Source: Desulfobaculum xiamenense (GTDB lineage Bacteria; Desulfobacterota; Desulfovibrionia; Desulfovibrionales; Desulfovibrionaceae). Taken from it: a stretch of 64,000 nucleotides of DNA. The DNA is taken from contig NZ_JAATJA010000002.1 in assembly GCF_011927665.1 (NCBI RefSeq), positions 186,001-250,000 of the forward strand. Reading direction: 5' to 3'. Below the pieces are notes generated by a model. That model saw nothing but the letters and a program-made list of their open reading frames with translations, was not told the origin of the DNA and searched no databases. Below, piece after piece: positions 13,539 through 20,763 of the stretch; the stretch's first letter is position 1; the number at the start of each line of letters is the position of its first letter. The position numbers were made by a program, and so were the translations under genes.

Positions 13539-14885
13539 TTACAGGACCGGCAGGTACCTGTTGATCTCGTATTCGGAGACGTGGGTGCGGTATTCGTCCC
13601 ACTCGGCCAGCTTGTTCTCCACGAGGTTCCTGTGGAGGGATTCGCCGAGGGTCTCCTTCATCAGTTCGGACGCTTCGAGGGTCTTGGCGGCGGTGTAGAG
13701 ATCGCCGGGCAGGGCCTCGATGCCATGGGTGTCCATGTCCTTCTCGGTGAAGGCGAAGATGTTCTTCTCCACCGCGGGTCCGAGCTCGTAGCCTTCCTCG
13801 ATGCCCTTGAGGCCAGCAGCGAGCTGCACGGCGAAGCAGAGGTAGGGGTTGGCCGCCGGATCGGGGTTACGCAGCTCGATGCGGGTGGCCGCTTCCTTGC
13901 CGGGCTTGTACATGGGCACGCGGATGAGGGCGGAGCGGTTGCGCTGGGCCCAGGCGATGTACACCGGAGCCTCGTAGCCGGGCACGAGACGCTTGTAGGA
14001 GTTCACCCACTGGTTCGTGACGCAGCAGAATTCCTTGGCGTGCTTGAGCAGGCCCGCGATGTAGGACTTGCACTCGCCGGAGAGGCCGTTGGGGTCCTTG
14101 GGATCGAAGAAGGCGTTGCGGCCGTTCTTGAACAGGGACTGGTGCACGTGCATGCCGGAGCCGTTCTGTCCGAAGATGGGCTTGGGCATGAAGGACACGT
14201 ACGCGCCGTGCTTGCGGGCCACTTCCTTGGCCACCACGCGGTAGGTGATGGCGATGTCGGCCATCAGCAGGCCTTCGTTGTAGCGCAGGTCGATTTCGTG
14301 CTGGGAGGGAGCCACCTCGTGGTGGGAGTACTCGACCTGCACGCCCATGCGCTGAAGGGCAAAGATGATTTCGCGGCGGATGTCGTTGCCGAGGTCCAGC
14401 GGCGGCGCATCGAAGTAGCCGCCCACATCCAGCGGGTCGGGCTTGCGGGAGTTGCCGAACACGAAGAACTCAAGCTCGGGGCCAACGTAGAAGGTGTAGC
14501 CCTTCTCGGCGGCCTTGGCGATGACCTTCTTGAGGACGTAGCGGGAATCGTTCTCGTAGGGGGTCATGTCGGGCAGCTTGATGTCGCAGAACATGCGCGC
14601 CACGGGGCGCTCGGTGGGCCGCCAGGACACCATCTGGAAGGTGGTGGGATCGGGGATGGCCACCATGTCCGACTCCTCGATGCGGGTGAAGCCGAGGATG
14701 GAGGAGCCATCGAAGCCCATGCCTTCCTCGAAGGCGGCCTCAAGCTCGTTCGGGGTGACCTGGAAGCTTTTCAGCGTGCCCAGGATGTCGATGAACCAGA
14801 ACTGTACGAAGCTGACGTTGTAGTCGCGTACGGCCTTGAGAACGTCATCCGCGTTCTTGCAGTTGAATACCGGCGTCTGTTCCAT
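13539..14885 (-). CDS. glnA: Type I glutamine synthetase
   Basis: A 448-residue glutamine synthetase. The beta-grasp N-terminus (FVQFWFIDILGTLKSFQV) is followed by GMGFDGSSI, the ATP/metal block NGSGMHVHQSLFKNGRNAF and the substrate loop NRSALIRVPMY. It makes glutamine from glutamate, ammonia and ATP. The region where adenylylated enzymes have NLYDLPPEE reads DLYTAAKTLEASE, so E. coli-type adenylylation control is doubtful and the GSI-alpha group is likelier. The ATG at 14885 has GGAGGG upstream; the reading frame continues 25 codons further but without a ribosome site or family similarity. Confidence 0.95.
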   Translation of the reverse strand: MEQTPVFNCKNADDVLKAVRDYNVSFVQFWFIDILGTLKSFQVTPNELEAAFEEGMGFDGSSILGFTRIEESDMVAIPDPTTFQMVSWRPTERPVARMFCDIKLPDMTPYENDSRYVLKKVIAKAAEKGYTFYVGPELEFFVFGNSRKPDPLDVGGYFDAPPLDLGNDIRREIIFALQRMGVQVEYSHHEVAPSQHEIDLRYNEGLLMADIAITYRVVAKEVARKHGAYVSFMPKPIFGQNGSGMHVHQSLFKNGRNAFFDPKDPNGLSGECKSYIAGLLKHAKEFCCVTNQWVNSYKRLVPGYEAPVYIAWAQRNRSALIRVPMYKPGKEAATRIELRNPDPAANPYLCFAVQLAAGLKGIEEGYELGPAVEKNIFAFTEKDMDTHGIEALPGDLYTAAKTLEASELMKETLGESLHRNLVENKLAEWDEYRTHVSEYEINRYLPVL

Positions 14886-14962
14886 GGGGTGATCCCTCCG
14901 GAAAATGGTGTATTCGTGAAAAGGTCTGTTGGCCCTTGTCGTCCGGAACTGCCCGGGCACAT

Positions 14963-16211: not shown

Positions 16212-16724
16212 TTACGCGCGGCTGAGCGCAAGGGCGAGGGCCGTGGTCAGCTTGATGAGTTCCGAGTTGTTTTTGCGCACCGTGGCCGCCAGACGCTTCG
16301 ACAGCGCGGTGAGCAGGCGCACGCCGATGATCGGTTCGCGCTCCAGCAGGTCGAAGAACCGGGCGCGGTCCGTGCGCAGGAATTCGCAGGGTTCGAGGGT
16401 CTCCACCGTGGCGGAGCGGGTGTCGCGGTCGATGAGCGCCATTTCCCCGAATAGCGGGCACAGTGCGCCGTCGAGGGTGGCCAGCACCTTGCGCGGGTCC
16501 TTGAGCTCCTCCAGCGGGACGCTCATGCCCTTGATGAGCATGGACTTGGTGATGCGTACGCGTCCTTTTACAAGAATGTACATTTCGTCACCGGTGTCGC
16601 CTTCGGCGATGAGCTTCTCGCCCTTGTCCACGCTGAAGGTGGAGAAGATGGGCTTGACGCGTTCGAGCTCCTCGGGCGGGAAGTCCGCGAACAGGGCGAC
16701 GTTCGTCCACTGGAATTTGTCCAT
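16212..16724 (-). CDS. Cyclic nucleotide-binding (CAP-ED) domain protein
   Basis: A 170-residue protein that is essentially one cNMP-binding jelly roll: GEKLIAEGDTGDEMYILVKGRVRI at about residues 35-58, then LFGEMALIDRDTRSATVETLEPCEFL, the phosphate-binding-cassette position. The helical C-terminus (about 125-170) shows no DNA-binding helix-turn-helix, so it is not a CRP-type regulator. It starts 14 bases after the K+ channel gene, and the two are probably co-translated; it may sense a nucleotide for the channel or the citrate synthase, which is inference. Confidence 0.82.
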   Translation of the reverse strand: MDKFQWTNVALFADFPPEELERVKPIFSTFSVDKGEKLIAEGDTGDEMYILVKGRVRITKSMLIKGMSVPLEELKDPRKVLATLDGALCPLFGEMALIDRDTRSATVETLEPCEFLRTDRARFFDLLEREPIIGVRLLTALSKRLAATVRKNNSELIKLTTALALALSRA

Positions 16725-16738
16725 GCGTGGCCTCGCTT

Positions 16739-17884
16739 TCAGCCCCCGCTCGCCGCGGGCTTGAGGAACAGAATGCCGTCGTAGTCCGCCAGCGGCTGGG
16801 CCTGTTCTGGATTGACGAGGATGTCCGGACCGCTCTGGCCGAGGGAGGTCTGCTGCCCCGTGGCGGTGAACAGTTCGAGGATGAACTGGTCCAGCGCGGA
16901 GCCTTCGTCGAGCATGTCCTTGAGGTTTAGGTCCCTGGATTCCTTGCACAGGGCAAGGGGCAGTTCCCCGGCGCCAGTCTGCCGGGTCGCGACGAGCTCG
17001 CCCCAGTTCATGCGACGTTCGTCCGCCGAGAGTGCCCGGTAGTCGAGACAACCCGGCCCCTGCACGCCCACCAGCCGCTGGAGGAAGGGCCACACCGAGG
17101 GCGTCGCGCCCATCAGTCCGAGGATGAGGGAGGTCATCTCGCCGCGCGCTACGATTTCGTCCACACCTGCGCGCAGGAGGTGGGTGTAGTTCTCCGCGAG
17201 CATGACCTCGGCGTAGATTTTCGCCTTGGGGGCCAGCCCGCGCACGATGAGCGCGGCGTAGAGGTTCTGTTGGTCCGCGTCCTGCGGGGGCATGCCCGCC
17301 TGACTCAGGATGTAGACCACGCGGGCCTGCGTGGGGCTTGCGCGGTGGATGACGTTTTCGTGGGTGGGGTCGCCGTAGACGAAGTGCAGGCGGTTTTCCA
17401 TTTCGAGCTGAAAGGCCAGCGCCTCGCGTTCTTCGGCGGGGAGGTTGTTGACGAGGGTGAGTTCGGACCCACGCAGCACGCCTGTTTCCTTGAGCGTGCG
17501 GACGAGGTTGGGCGCGTAGGAGTTCCAGCCGACGATGATGACGTGTCCGGAGAGGTTCACCTTGAGCAGCCCCTTGCGGCGTTTGGCATGGCGCTCCACG
17601 ATGAGCGAGGCGAGGTTGCCCGTGAGCGTGGAGACCATGCCGATTCCAGAGATCATGACCAGAAGGCCCAGAATCCGTCCCTCGGTTGTGGCGGGCACGA
17701 GGTCGCCGTAGCCGACGGTGGTCAGCGTGACCACCGCCCACCATACGGCGCTCAGAAAGTCGTCGCGGCCCTGCGGCCTGAGTTCGATGAGGTAGAAGCC
17801 CACCGAACTCAGGCACAGGAGCAGGGCGATGAACAGCAGGAGCTTGTGGAATGGATTCCTAAACGCCGTCCTCGTGGTCGTCAT
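16739..17884 (-). CDS. Potassium channel with RCK/TrkA-N domain
   Basis: A 381-residue two-helix K+ channel: TM1 (about residues 14-34), selectivity filter TVGYGD (56-61), TM2 (70-90), then a cytoplasmic RCK domain beginning HVIIVGWNSYAPNL (about 113). A C-terminal extension (about 270-381) has no domain I recognise. Such channels are tetramers in the inner membrane gated by ligands bound to RCK. The start overlaps the end of the upstream citrate synthase gene by 26 bases, so translational coupling is likely. Confidence 0.9.
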   Translation of the reverse strand: MTTTRTAFRNPFHKLLLFIALLLCLSSVGFYLIELRPQGRDDFLSAVWWAVVTLTTVGYGDLVPATTEGRILGLLVMISGIGMVSTLTGNLASLIVERHAKRRKGLLKVNLSGHVIIVGWNSYAPNLVRTLKETGVLRGSELTLVNNLPAEEREALAFQLEMENRLHFVYGDPTHENVIHRASPTQARVVYILSQAGMPPQDADQQNLYAALIVRGLAPKAKIYAEVMLAENYTHLLRAGVDEIVARGEMTSLILGLMGATPSVWPFLQRLVGVQGPGCLDYRALSADERRMNWGELVATRQTGAGELPLALCKESRDLNLKDMLDEGSALDQFILELFTATGQQTSLGQSGPDILVNPEQAQPLADYDGILFLKPAASGG

Positions 17885-19688
17885 CCTCCATTGCCAGCGC
17901 CTCGTGGCGTCTCAGCAGTTCCTCGAAGCGGATGTCCGCGCCGAGGATGCCCTGGATTTCCAGATCCTCGTCGTCCACCGGGGTGGACACGGTGAGGCAC
18001 AGCTTGCCCGTGAAGTGGGACTTGTAGAAGTCCGTCACGTGCAGCTTGCCGGTGCGCATGGGCACGGTGAACCATTCACGGCCCGAGAAGTCGGTGGTGT
18101 AGTCGTAGGTCTTGTATTTGGGCCGGTCCTCGTCGTGGCAGACGGCGCTGGCGGTGAGATGGCCCGTGGTGTCGATGAGGTACATGTACTGGATGAACGG
18201 GTACTCGGTGAGGAATCCGTCCATGCAGCGCTCCACGTTGTCCGCGTCCATGCTGCGGATCTCGCACTGGGTGGAGAGCTTCTCGATGATGCGCGCGGCC
18301 AGCTTGTGGGCGATGCGCTTGAGGTGGTCGAATTCCGAGGGGAACAGCTCGGGCAGGTAGCGCTTCACCAGCGCCTTCATTTCCTTGTTGGAGAAGTGCG
18401 TGGTGCGTCCGCCCTCGTAGGCGCGGGCGATGTGTTCGGCGATGGCCGCCACGGTGGGGTGGCGCTTGTCGATGCGGTCCTCGCCCGAGAGGTCGAGATG
18501 CTGATTGATCCAGTAGGCCACGCCCGCCTTGCCCGTCTTGTCCGTGATGATGATGGGCACGGGGCGGCGCAGGATCTTGGTGGTGTCGAAGATGTTGTAG
18601 ATTTCCTCGTTCTTGATGAGGCCGTCCACGTGGATGCCCGCACTGGTGGCGTTGAAGTCGCGCCCCACGAAGGGATAGTTTTCCGGGATGTGGTAGTCCA
18701 GCTCGCGGGCGAAGTAGTCGCCTATTTCGGAGATGGTCTCGGTGACGGCGGCGTCGTCCTCGCCGGTGAGCGAGATGTATTCGATGACCAGCGCCTCCAG
18801 CGGGGCGTTGCCCGTGCGCTCGCCGAAGCCGAGCAGGGTGCCGTTGGCCCCGGAGCAGCCGTAGAGCCACGCCGTGGCGGCGTTGACGAGCACCTTGTGG
18901 AAGTCGTTGTGACCGTGCCACTCCAGCCACTGGCTAGGCACGCCCGCGTGGTCCGTGAAGGCCCGCACGATGCGCGCCACGGAGCGCGGCAGCGCCGCGC
19001 CGGGGTAGGGCACGCCGAAGCCGAGGGTGTCGCACAGGCGAATCTTCACGGGCAGGCCGCTTTCGCTGGCCAGTTCCATCAGCCTTGCGGCAAAGGGCAC
19101 GCAGAAGCCCATGATGTCTGCGCGGGTGACGTCCTCGAAGTGGCAGCGCGGCACGATGCCCCATTCCAGCGCCTTCTCCACGATGGCCAGATAGTCGTTC
19201 ATGGCCTGCTGGCGGTCTTTCCCGAGCTTCATATAGATGTGGTAGTCCGACACGGAGGTCAGCATGCCCGTCTCGTGAAGGCCCATTTCCTTCACCAGCC
19301 TCAGGTCGTCTGCGTTGGCGCGGATCCAGCCCGTGACCTCGGGGAACTTGTAGTCCTTGGCCATGCAGGCTTCCACGGCCTTACGGTCCTTCTTGGAGTA
19401 CAGGAAGAACTCGCTTTGGCGGATGAGGCCGGAGTGCCCGCCGAGCTTGTGCAGGAAGTCGAAGATGGTTGCGATCTGGGCGACGGTGTAGGGCGGTCTG
19501 GCCTGCTGGCCGTCGCGGAAGGTGGTGTCGGTGATGAACATCGGTTCCGCAGGACGCGGAATGAGAAAGTGGTCGTCGAAGTTCACGCGGCCGATCTTGG
19601 TGTAGGGGAAATTGTCCCTGAAAAGCTCGGGCTTGTCCGGGTTTTGCAGAGCCATGTTCGTGGGCCGGTTGAAGTGGAGGAACGGCAT
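17859..19688 (-). CDS. Re-citrate synthase family protein fused to a C-terminal Cache/PDC-like domain
   Basis: A 609-residue protein. Residues about 45-445 form an HMGL-type synthase: TDTTFRDGQQARPPYTV (from residue 53), RQSEFFLYSKKD, and the metal ligand block EWHGHNDF (about 255-262). The sequence follows the Re-citrate synthase of Clostridium kluyveri closely as I recall it (PYT..., EVTGWIRA, VPRCHFEDVTRAD, GNAPLEAL), rather than isopropylmalate synthase. Residues about 479-598 resemble a PDC/Cache sensor (FSGREWF..., LHVTDFYKS, LTVSTPVDD), normally found outside the cell in receptors. AAGGAG precedes the ATG at 19688; in-frame codons upstream lack family similarity. It probably supplies citrate in a strict anaerobe. 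Confidence 0.85.
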   Translation of the reverse strand: MPFLHFNRPTNMALQNPDKPELFRDNFPYTKIGRVNFDDHFLIPRPAEPMFITDTTFRDGQQARPPYTVAQIATIFDFLHKLGGHSGLIRQSEFFLYSKKDRKAVEACMAKDYKFPEVTGWIRANADDLRLVKEMGLHETGMLTSVSDYHIYMKLGKDRQQAMNDYLAIVEKALEWGIVPRCHFEDVTRADIMGFCVPFAARLMELASESGLPVKIRLCDTLGFGVPYPGAALPRSVARIVRAFTDHAGVPSQWLEWHGHNDFHKVLVNAATAWLYGCSGANGTLLGFGERTGNAPLEALVIEYISLTGEDDAAVTETISEIGDYFARELDYHIPENYPFVGRDFNATSAGIHVDGLIKNEEIYNIFDTTKILRRPVPIIITDKTGKAGVAYWINQHLDLSGEDRIDKRHPTVAAIAEHIARAYEGGRTTHFSNKEMKALVKRYLPELFPSEFDHLKRIAHKLAARIIEKLSTQCEIRSMDADNVERCMDGFLTEYPFIQYMYLIDTTGHLTASAVCHDEDRPKYKTYDYTTDFSGREWFTVPMRTGKLHVTDFYKSHFTGKLCLTVSTPVDDEDLEIQGILGADIRFEELLRRHEALAMEDDDHEDGV

Positions 19689-19849
19689 TCTGAAAAGCTC
19701 CTTGGTGTGGGGATATATGGGCCAAGGCAGGATGATCCCGCCCCAGGGTACGAAAAAAGATAACAGAATGCCGGACGACTGCAAGAGCGCCGGGAGCGTG
19801 CATCGTCGTGGAACGTGCGCCAAGGCTTGCGCACGGCGGGTTTCGGAGT

Positions 19850-20611
19850 CTAGGAACGCTTGGCCGTGATGCGCTCGCGTTCCTCGCCAAGCAGGTTGTG
19901 GTGGGGATTCATGCGTTCTGCCTCGGCAAGGGCGCGCAGGGCGTCCTCGCGCCAGCCGCCGGTGCGCAGGCTGCGTGCGGCCAGCAGGTACATGAGTTCC
20001 GGCTCGTCGTCATAGATGGCCTTGACGAGGCGTGGGTAGCCGCTGCCGAAGACCTCGCGCACCAGTTCCTCGCTGGCGAGGAAGAAGCGGGCCAGCAGTT
20101 CGTTGTCGCGGTGGCGGGGCAGATACTCCACCAGCAGGCTGCGGCAGTTGAAGAGGATGAAGCGAATGCGGTTGACCTCGCGCTGGATGCTCTCGTTGGT
20201 CTGATCCAGCACGCGCATCAGCTCCTGCGAGACGTGGCGGGCGTTCTCCGGCAGTTGGCGGCGTTGCAGCTCGCGGAACCATGGGGCGTAGTTCTGCTGC
20301 TGGTAGGCGTCTTCCTTGAGCTTCATGGTGTCATGGAAGATGTAGCCCATGCTCCAGTCGAGGAATTGGCCCAGAAGCCCGTTTTCCGAGGCGTTCTTCT
20401 TGAACAGCAGATGCGCCGTGTCCTTGAGCCGCCACAGCAGGCCCTTGTTGGTTTCCTGCCCCAGCAGATTCCTGATCACGGTGAAATCGACATGACCGGT
20501 CTTGTCGAAATGCCGAAATTCCCGCTCCAGTTCGCGGTGCACCTGGCAGAAGTCGCGCACCACGTCGCGCACGAAATCCGGCCGCTTGGCCCTGATCCAC
20601 GCCTTGGACAT
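19850..20611 (-). CDS. Conserved-looking hypothetical protein, helical, cytoplasmic
   Basis: A 253-residue protein that I do not recognise. It is rich in charged and aromatic residues, predicted mainly helical, with no signal peptide or membrane segment. Notable blocks are CQVHRELEREFRHFDKTGHVDF, shortened here to its core HRELEREFRHFDKTG, and a C-terminal region resembling a tetratricopeptide-like helical repeat (LAARSLRTGGWREDALRALAEAE). The ATG at 20611 has AGGAGAACGAAC upstream. It is transcribed leftward, between the small membrane protein and citrate synthase genes, with separate spacing from both. Confidence 0.6.
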   Translation of the reverse strand: MSKAWIRAKRPDFVRDVVRDFCQVHRELEREFRHFDKTGHVDFTVIRNLLGQETNKGLLWRLKDTAHLLFKKNASENGLLGQFLDWSMGYIFHDTMKLKEDAYQQQNYAPWFRELQRRQLPENARHVSQELMRVLDQTNESIQREVNRIRFILFNCRSLLVEYLPRHRDNELLARFFLASEELVREVFGSGYPRLVKAIYDDEPELMYLLAARSLRTGGWREDALRALAEAERMNPHHNLLGEERERITAKRS

Positions 20612-20763
20612 CGTCTGTTCGTTCTCCTTTTCCCCCCTCGGGACAGCTTCCCCTATCACACGTCACGAAACATGGAAACATTATCGGAGGGCCGACAGGC
20701 GCATTCCCCAGCCCTATCCCAACCGCGCGGACGCGCGCTGTTTCGCACGGGGCGCGGGGCTTT

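Follow-up and report, generated by a model that had tools for sequence, protein, structure and literature searches.

The window analysed here is a stretch of 64,000 nucleotides from Desulfobaculum xiamenense, a member of the Desulfobacterota (NCBI RefSeq assembly GCF_011927665.1, contig NZ_JAATJA010000002.1, positions 186,001 to 250,000 of the forward strand). Its subject is a minus-strand gene that encodes a putative Re-citrate synthase ending in a Cache domain. The gene starts with the ATG at 19688, as read from the open reading frame, and the locus comprises the following features:

17859..19688, minus strand: putative Re-citrate synthase gene with a C-terminal Cache domain, 609 amino acids (open reading frame and Pfam)
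19698..19703, minus strand: AAGGAG, a ribosome-binding-like site nine bases before the synthase ATG (read in the sequence)
18780..19535, minus strand: HMGL-like catalytic barrel, residues 52-303 (PF00682, E 2.6e-30; structure match)
18384..18779, minus strand: post-barrel region, residues 304-435, with a weak HCS_D2 match at 349-396 below the cut-off (Pfam)
18246..18383, minus strand: helical link to the Cache domain, residues 436-481, with helices at 434-444 and 452-472 (model)
17913..18245, minus strand: Cache/PDC core, residues 482-592 (profiles, models, and structure searches)
17934..18080, minus strand: stretch with the candidate pocket residues R537, W539, Y555, S557, T566, S568, and D585 (PctA/KinD alignment and conservation)

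An earlier sequence-only reading had described this protein as an HMGL-type synthase fused to a receptor-type Cache/PDC tail at residues 479-598 with no membrane segment. The fusion is real according to the open reading frame, the Pfam profiles, and 75 aligned relatives that carry the domain; the core found (about 482-592) lies close to the claimed span, and the motifs FSGREWF, DFYKS, and LTVSTPV are present at residues 534-540, 553-557, and 565-571. In Pfam, the tail matches MCP-like_PDC_1 (PF22673) at 498-591 with 40.9 bits against a cut-off of 27, and dCache_1 at 484-591 with E 1e-10 and 42 bits, below the cut-off of 45. The dCache_1 match covers only profile positions 57-155 of 240, and the chain stops after one module of the two that define this family. 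The highest 19-residue hydropathy mean in the synthase is 1.11, which rules out a membrane helix, and on this ground membrane insertion was rejected; the tail thus lacks the extracytoplasmic position between membrane helices that is typical of dCache_1 receptors. A plus-strand open reading frame of 644 amino acids opposite the gene (17829-19763) is regarded as a mechanical by-product of the high G+C content.

The tail is a single module of the Cache/PDC superfamily, as had been proposed from the sequence, and hidden Markov model and structure comparisons (Pfam, Foldseek, and VIA-align) agree on this fold. The full-length model, derived from an alignment of the window protein with 75 relatives, has a mean predicted local distance difference test score (pLDDT) of 90.8 and a predicted template modelling score of 0.76. 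Since barrel structures took up the list from the full-length VIA search and left the tail almost unprobed, residues 436-609 were modelled separately with AlphaFold (pLDDT 86.3). The top Foldseek matches of this model are KinD sensor structures (best E 3.0e-9), and further matches include Tlp3, PctC, WalK, CtaA, Mlp37, DctB, PctB, and PctA. VIA-align gives Z of 13-16 for Cache sensors and superposes the tail on WalK (Z 16.4, root-mean-square deviation 3.4, 133 aligned residues), KinD (15.9, 4.6, 148), Tlp3 (14.6, 4.3, 145), CitA (14.2, 2.8, 125), and DctB (14.2, 4.2, 148). Among solved chains, a sequence-profile comparison places Tlp3 (E 6.3e-11), KinD (3.1e-10), and PctA (4e-7) closest, and the intracellular YkuI (2bas) is also matched (E 3.3e-4). 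A tail of unrelated ACT or LeuA type, the outcome that the earlier reading had named beforehand as contradicting it, was rejected: neither the LeuA allosteric domain (PF08502) in the synthase nor an ACT profile in its tail gave a Pfam match at E up to 1.

The cytoplasmic setting, unlike that of receptors, also stands when the protein is compared with its own genome, in which MCP-like_PDC_1 has eight matches, seven of them above the cut-off. The other seven matching proteins are membrane receptors, five chemoreceptors and two histidine kinases, and in all seven a hydrophobic segment flanks the module on either side; the match below the cut-off (L125) shows dCache_1 instead. The synthase is the only MCP-like_PDC_1 protein of the genome without membrane segments, and its module stands alone.

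The fusion is widespread in the phylum and beyond, a point of which the earlier reader was unaware. In a survey of 297 genomes of the phylum, a family match was counted at E up to 1e-60, and Cache was scored as present when the match extended at least to profile position 596. On this basis the domain is carried by 140 of the 144 genes that could be scored (G278 in two pieces; the match of G170 ends at 327 and was left out as unscorable). A fusion created by a frameshift or by assembly was rejected, as the domain occurs in these 140 genes and in the 75 aligned relatives. The latter, together with the window protein, form an alignment of 76 rows drawn from 80 loci, five of which (L063, L064, L065, L070, and L079) were excluded as cut or shifted; the 80 loci were chosen by likeness to the full query and lean towards the Cache-bearing form. 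They include Spirochaetes, Elusimicrobia, Armatimonadetes, Fibrobacteres, and Lentisphaerae. In Nitrospirae, the phylum of L030, the family is found in 30 of 80 genomes (28 with Cache, one cut by the contig end, and one unclear), and in Omnitrophota, the phylum of L055, in 5 of 58 (three of them with Cache, the other two stopping at 451 and 466); Firmicutes and Chloroflexi were outside the surveyed genomes. The fusion is old, because both the 140 phylum genes and genes of other phyla carry Cache. Ten phylum-survey rows contain one stop that the search read through, and two of them were inspected: L108 reads without interruption for 590 residues from the match start, and G294 is one of the short genes described below.

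Four genes of the phylum lack Cache and end near residue 450 (G016, G034, G212, and G294, with 455, 460, 465, and 461 amino acids), and no match to the Si-citrate synthase profile PF00285 was found in any of their genomes. As these genes are the sole citrate synthase found in their genomes, Cache is probably dispensable for catalysis; it seems dispensable for citrate supply and yet is nearly always kept. By sequence and by likeness to the search seeds, their neighbours are a malate dehydrogenase (G016), an isocitrate dehydrogenase (IDH)-family gene (G034), and an aconitase-family gene (G212), and no IDH, aconitase, or malate dehydrogenase neighbour occurs within the stretch listed beside the short gene of G294. 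The short genes (L115, L116, L117, and L118) are ready-made natural controls for enzyme work. In a tree of the catalytic part made by a quick method from 93 rows, the deep forks are unsettled and the four short genes require three changes; a single gain of Cache can therefore not be claimed. Over 87 rows, distances in Cache and in the catalytic part correlate (Mantel r 0.78, a value reached by 0 of 2000 permutations); this shows that the two parts are inherited together, but it also reflects plain shared descent.

The candidate ligand pocket was mapped from an alignment of the tail with PctA, numbered so that the five named PctA residues fall in place. In this mapping, PctA Y121 corresponds to T532, R126 to R537, W128 to W539, Y129 to F540, Y144 to Y555, and D173 to D585. 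According to passages of PMC10104139, R126 binds the carboxyl group of the ligand, Y129 has a structural role without ligand contact, and the aspartate position is a point of ligand contact in sensors of amino acids and amines. Among the 76 rows, R537 is conserved in 71, W539 in 76, F540 in 75, Y555 in 64 (phenylalanine in 10), and D585 in 76. When 30 rows from the phylum survey are added, W539 and D585 are found in 106 of 106, and the arginine, tryptophan, tyrosine, and aspartate positions of the motif are all kept in 92. Conservation is higher at the nine pocket-aligned positions than at the remaining 102 of the core (p 1.4e-4); for the five amino-acid motif positions alone the value is weaker (p 0.024), owing to position 532, which has rank 103 of 111. 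Residue 532 varies between lineages, with glutamate the commonest and tyrosine, serine, aspartate, arginine, threonine, and lysine also present, and this variation could tune the choice of ligand.

Four residues of the amino acid motif dCache_1AA (R126, W128, Y144, and D173) thus have their counterparts in R537, W539, Y555, and D585, and the invariant aspartate speaks for a ligand with an amino group. Passages of PMC11245519 describe this aspartate as strictly conserved among the motifs for amino acids and amines, with glycine in its place in the purine sensor McpH, and a purine ligand is therefore unlikely here. Passages of PMC7584622 list R126, W128, Y144, D146, and D173 as the residues found most often across dCache_1 domains in general; the presence of the motif residues therefore partly reflects descent. 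Of the five positions given there for autoinducer-2 binding, four are kept and D146 is a serine; autoinducer-2 is an unlikely ligand inside the cell. The conserved pocket would fit the binding of a small acid, and an amino acid would fit somewhat better than a plain acid. Several points weigh against this reading of the pocket. Y121 is represented by T532, and tyrosine occurs at this position in only 10 of 106 rows (L003-L012), all within the window's clade of 16 rows, so the strict motif is lacking; its absence and the likeness to KinD, the closest Foldseek structure, solved with pyruvate and no amino acid, call for caution. W539 and F540, moreover, may be kept for stability.

The same observations bear on the possibility that the ligand of the Cache domain is a plain carboxylate (pyruvate, citrate, 2-oxoglutarate, or malate, for example) acting as a feedback inhibitor or feed-forward activator, which we regard as unlikely but the strongest of the alternatives. 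The missing Y121 would agree with it, as would the first rank of KinD in Foldseek, one KinD entry being titled as a pyruvate complex and R537 aligning with the KinD arginine that is replaced by alanine in the R131A entries, and as would the matches at Z of about 14 to CitA and DctB, sensors of citrate and C4-dicarboxylates. It is opposed by D585, a ligand-contact position of amino acid and amine sensors that is invariant here and an alanine in KinD, and by the finding that R537 is the only conserved base among the nine pocket positions, while dCache domains that bind carboxylic acids have two positions with a positive charge according to passages of PMC8694187.

Less probable still is a Cache domain that binds no ligand and serves dimer formation or enzyme stability. 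The most strictly conserved residues do include possible fold-holders (G509, L563, and F540), and the long helices of the model (452-472, 482-495, and 588-606) could pack between chains, but the more strongly conserved pocket positions include arginine, serine, threonine, and aspartate residues that a scaffold would not need, and Cache-less genes exist in genomes where no other citrate synthase was found.

With respect to the enzyme itself, the catalytic part resembles homocitrate synthase 6ktq (Z 33.4 over residues 48-450 in the VIA structure search with the full-length model), and R58, D59, H258, and H260, which we take to have a catalytic role, occur in 110 of 110 aligned rows. All NCBIfam models for the synthase part fall far below their cut-offs. 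The genome, which is listed as 100% complete, gave no Si-citrate synthase (PF00285) in a profile search that found a match in 13 of 14 control genomes, and it holds three PF00682 proteins above the cut-off and a fourth match below it; the other two above the cut-off are LeuA and citramalate synthase, which both exceed their NCBIfam cut-offs.

Across the 297 phylum genomes, the two types of citrate synthase are largely alternatives to each other. The family is present in 145 genomes and a strong Si-citrate synthase (a PF00285 match of about 1e-60 or better) in 145, or 158 including 13 weak matches above 1e-60 that were left out of the main count. This family only is found in 119, strong Si-citrate synthase only in 119, both in 26, and neither in 33 (G028-like genomes and others), a negative association with an odds ratio of 0.06 (Fisher p 1.3e-26, uncorrected for kinship). 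With the weak matches included, the counts are 117, 130, 28, and 22, respectively. In the window's own family, replacement is complete, eight of 11 genomes having only this synthase and three only the Si type.

Gene neighbours in relatives point in the same direction. An IDH-, aconitase-, or malate dehydrogenase-like gene lies at 22 of 110 loci (those of the four short genes excluded), in a search of loci of varying length whose seeds were genes from the neighbourhoods of the Cache-less synthases; the window's glutamine synthetase, used as a control seed, gave 0 of 114 loci. Ten of these neighbours were scanned with profiles, and six reach a relevant cut-off: NADP-dependent IDH at L006 and L031, aconitate hydratase at L069 and L076, malate dehydrogenase at L056, and, at L006, an aconitase-related hydratase with weaker aconitase matches. 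On the basis of these ten, leucine-pathway genes as the cause of the gene context were rejected.

The identity that fits best is Re-citrate synthase, as had been assigned from the sequence, because the genome lacks Si-citrate synthase and has LeuA and citramalate synthase as separate genes, and because of the replacement pattern and the neighbours in relatives. It has to be set against this that 26 genomes hold both synthases and 33 neither, in counts that ignore kinship; that the IDH-like genes of L055, L059, and L069 fall below every cut-off, with IDH as their best name; that one L031 gene passes only the subfamily cut-offs common to aconitase, homoaconitase, and LeuC; and that the window's own synthase has no IDH, aconitase, or malate dehydrogenase gene among its scanned neighbours. 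Another condensing enzyme of the superfamily, for instance a homocitrate synthase, is very improbable. Its one point of support, NifV homocitrate synthase as the best NCBIfam match, reaches 139 of the 463 bits needed, and it is opposed by the same genome content, replacement pattern, and neighbours.

The remaining genes around the window's synthase differ from these contexts. Immediately downstream, with a 26-base overlap between its ATG and the synthase stop, lies a potassium channel with a TrkA-N domain (16212-17884, minus strand), which is followed by a cyclic-nucleotide-binding protein; the order synthase, channel, cyclic-nucleotide-binding protein is repeated at L001, and the channel occurs at no other of the 114 loci. 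A link between potassium and glutamate balance is conceivable. The upstream protein of 269 residues (19850-20659, minus strand) has no Pfam or NCBIfam match, and its relatives lie upstream of the same synthase at L001, L002, L010, and L045. The glutamine synthetase (13539-14960, minus strand) lies about 3 kb downstream of the synthase and has no relative at the other 114 loci.

The reading that we favour, with somewhat better than even confidence, is that of a cytoplasmic Re-citrate synthase with an intracellular allosteric Cache domain that probably senses a glutamate-family amino acid. In a cell without Si-citrate synthase, the enzyme would form citrate from acetyl-CoA and oxaloacetate, and Cache, at the place of the LeuA-type allosteric domain, would act as an intracellular ligand-binding regulatory domain. 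The ligand would most likely be an amino acid and probably a member of the glutamate family, with its carboxylate held by R537 and its amino group by D585 and Y555. Citrate leads through 2-oxoglutarate to glutamate; the binding of a family amino acid would give feedback and adjust citrate formation to the need for 2-oxoglutarate. From the pocket and its setting we infer ligand binding, the identity of the ligand, and an inhibitory effect, with unequal confidence: ligand-binding regulation of some kind is highly probable, an amino acid as the ligand has an even chance, and a glutamate-family amino acid as the inhibitor is a tentative proposal. The model, being a single chain, leaves the position of Cache relative to the barrel undefined, which counts against the proposal. 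According to passages of PMC12016533, Desulfovibrio vulgaris seems to have an incomplete cycle, and the loss of citrate synthase is expected, for Clostridiales, to create a need for glutamate or glutamine.

Diacid_rec, a Cache-superfamily domain, sits in transcription regulators. Like the synthase tail, it and YkuI_C are principally intracellular according to passages of PMC4822843, in which YkuI joins its Cache to an EAL domain and not to a biosynthetic enzyme. PctA, Tlp3, and KinD share the PDC fold with the synthase, which keeps the equivalents of PctA R126, W128, Y144, and D173 but has a single module rather than two, lacks membrane segments and Y121, and is fused to an enzyme. LeuA and citramalate synthase have a like barrel and, after the post-barrel region, a C-terminal domain as in the window synthase, but in the proteins of this genome that domain is PF08502, a profile unrelated to the Cache found in its place. 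The title of the nearest homocitrate synthase structure, SaHCS(dRAM), suggests to us that a RAM domain is missing from it, and the enzyme family seems to exchange its C-terminal regulatory domains. Re-citrate synthases are known from Clostridium kluyveri, Syntrophus aciditrophicus, and Heliomicrobium (HM1_2993) and, compared by description only, are HMGL-related synthases that replace Si-citrate synthase, as here. Passages of PMC12016533 present the enzyme as the anaerobes' substitute for Si-citrate synthase, with Thermodesulfobacteriota among its users. Cache has no occurrence in that paper; the Syntrophaceae relatives L037 and L039 carry the domain.

Cache domains have been described as extracellular sensors of signal transduction proteins, 78% of them confidently extracellular, in families that are principally extracellular except for two small intracellular ones (passages of PMC4822843). 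Unlike this picture, Cache is here a stable part of a central cytoplasmic enzyme in many anaerobes. Open-access texts yielded nothing relevant on a Re-citrate or homocitrate synthase with Cache, subscription papers lying mostly outside their scope, and control of citrate formation by Re-citrate synthase was not met in the literature passages. The parts are already known and domain databases surely show the architecture, and no claim of first sight is made. With this domain, the control of citrate formation by Re-citrate synthase becomes amenable to direct testing, and receptors hint at the class of ligand to expect. It is possible, at a little under an even chance, that Cache acts in the cytoplasm as an allosteric amino-acid gauge of citrate synthesis in several anaerobe phyla, with glutamate-family control through the pocket. 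If true, this would be a natural example of a sensor module moved from receptors to an enzyme, and Cache would be a further unrelated regulatory domain, beside the LeuA-type and RAM domains, swapped at the end of this enzyme family.

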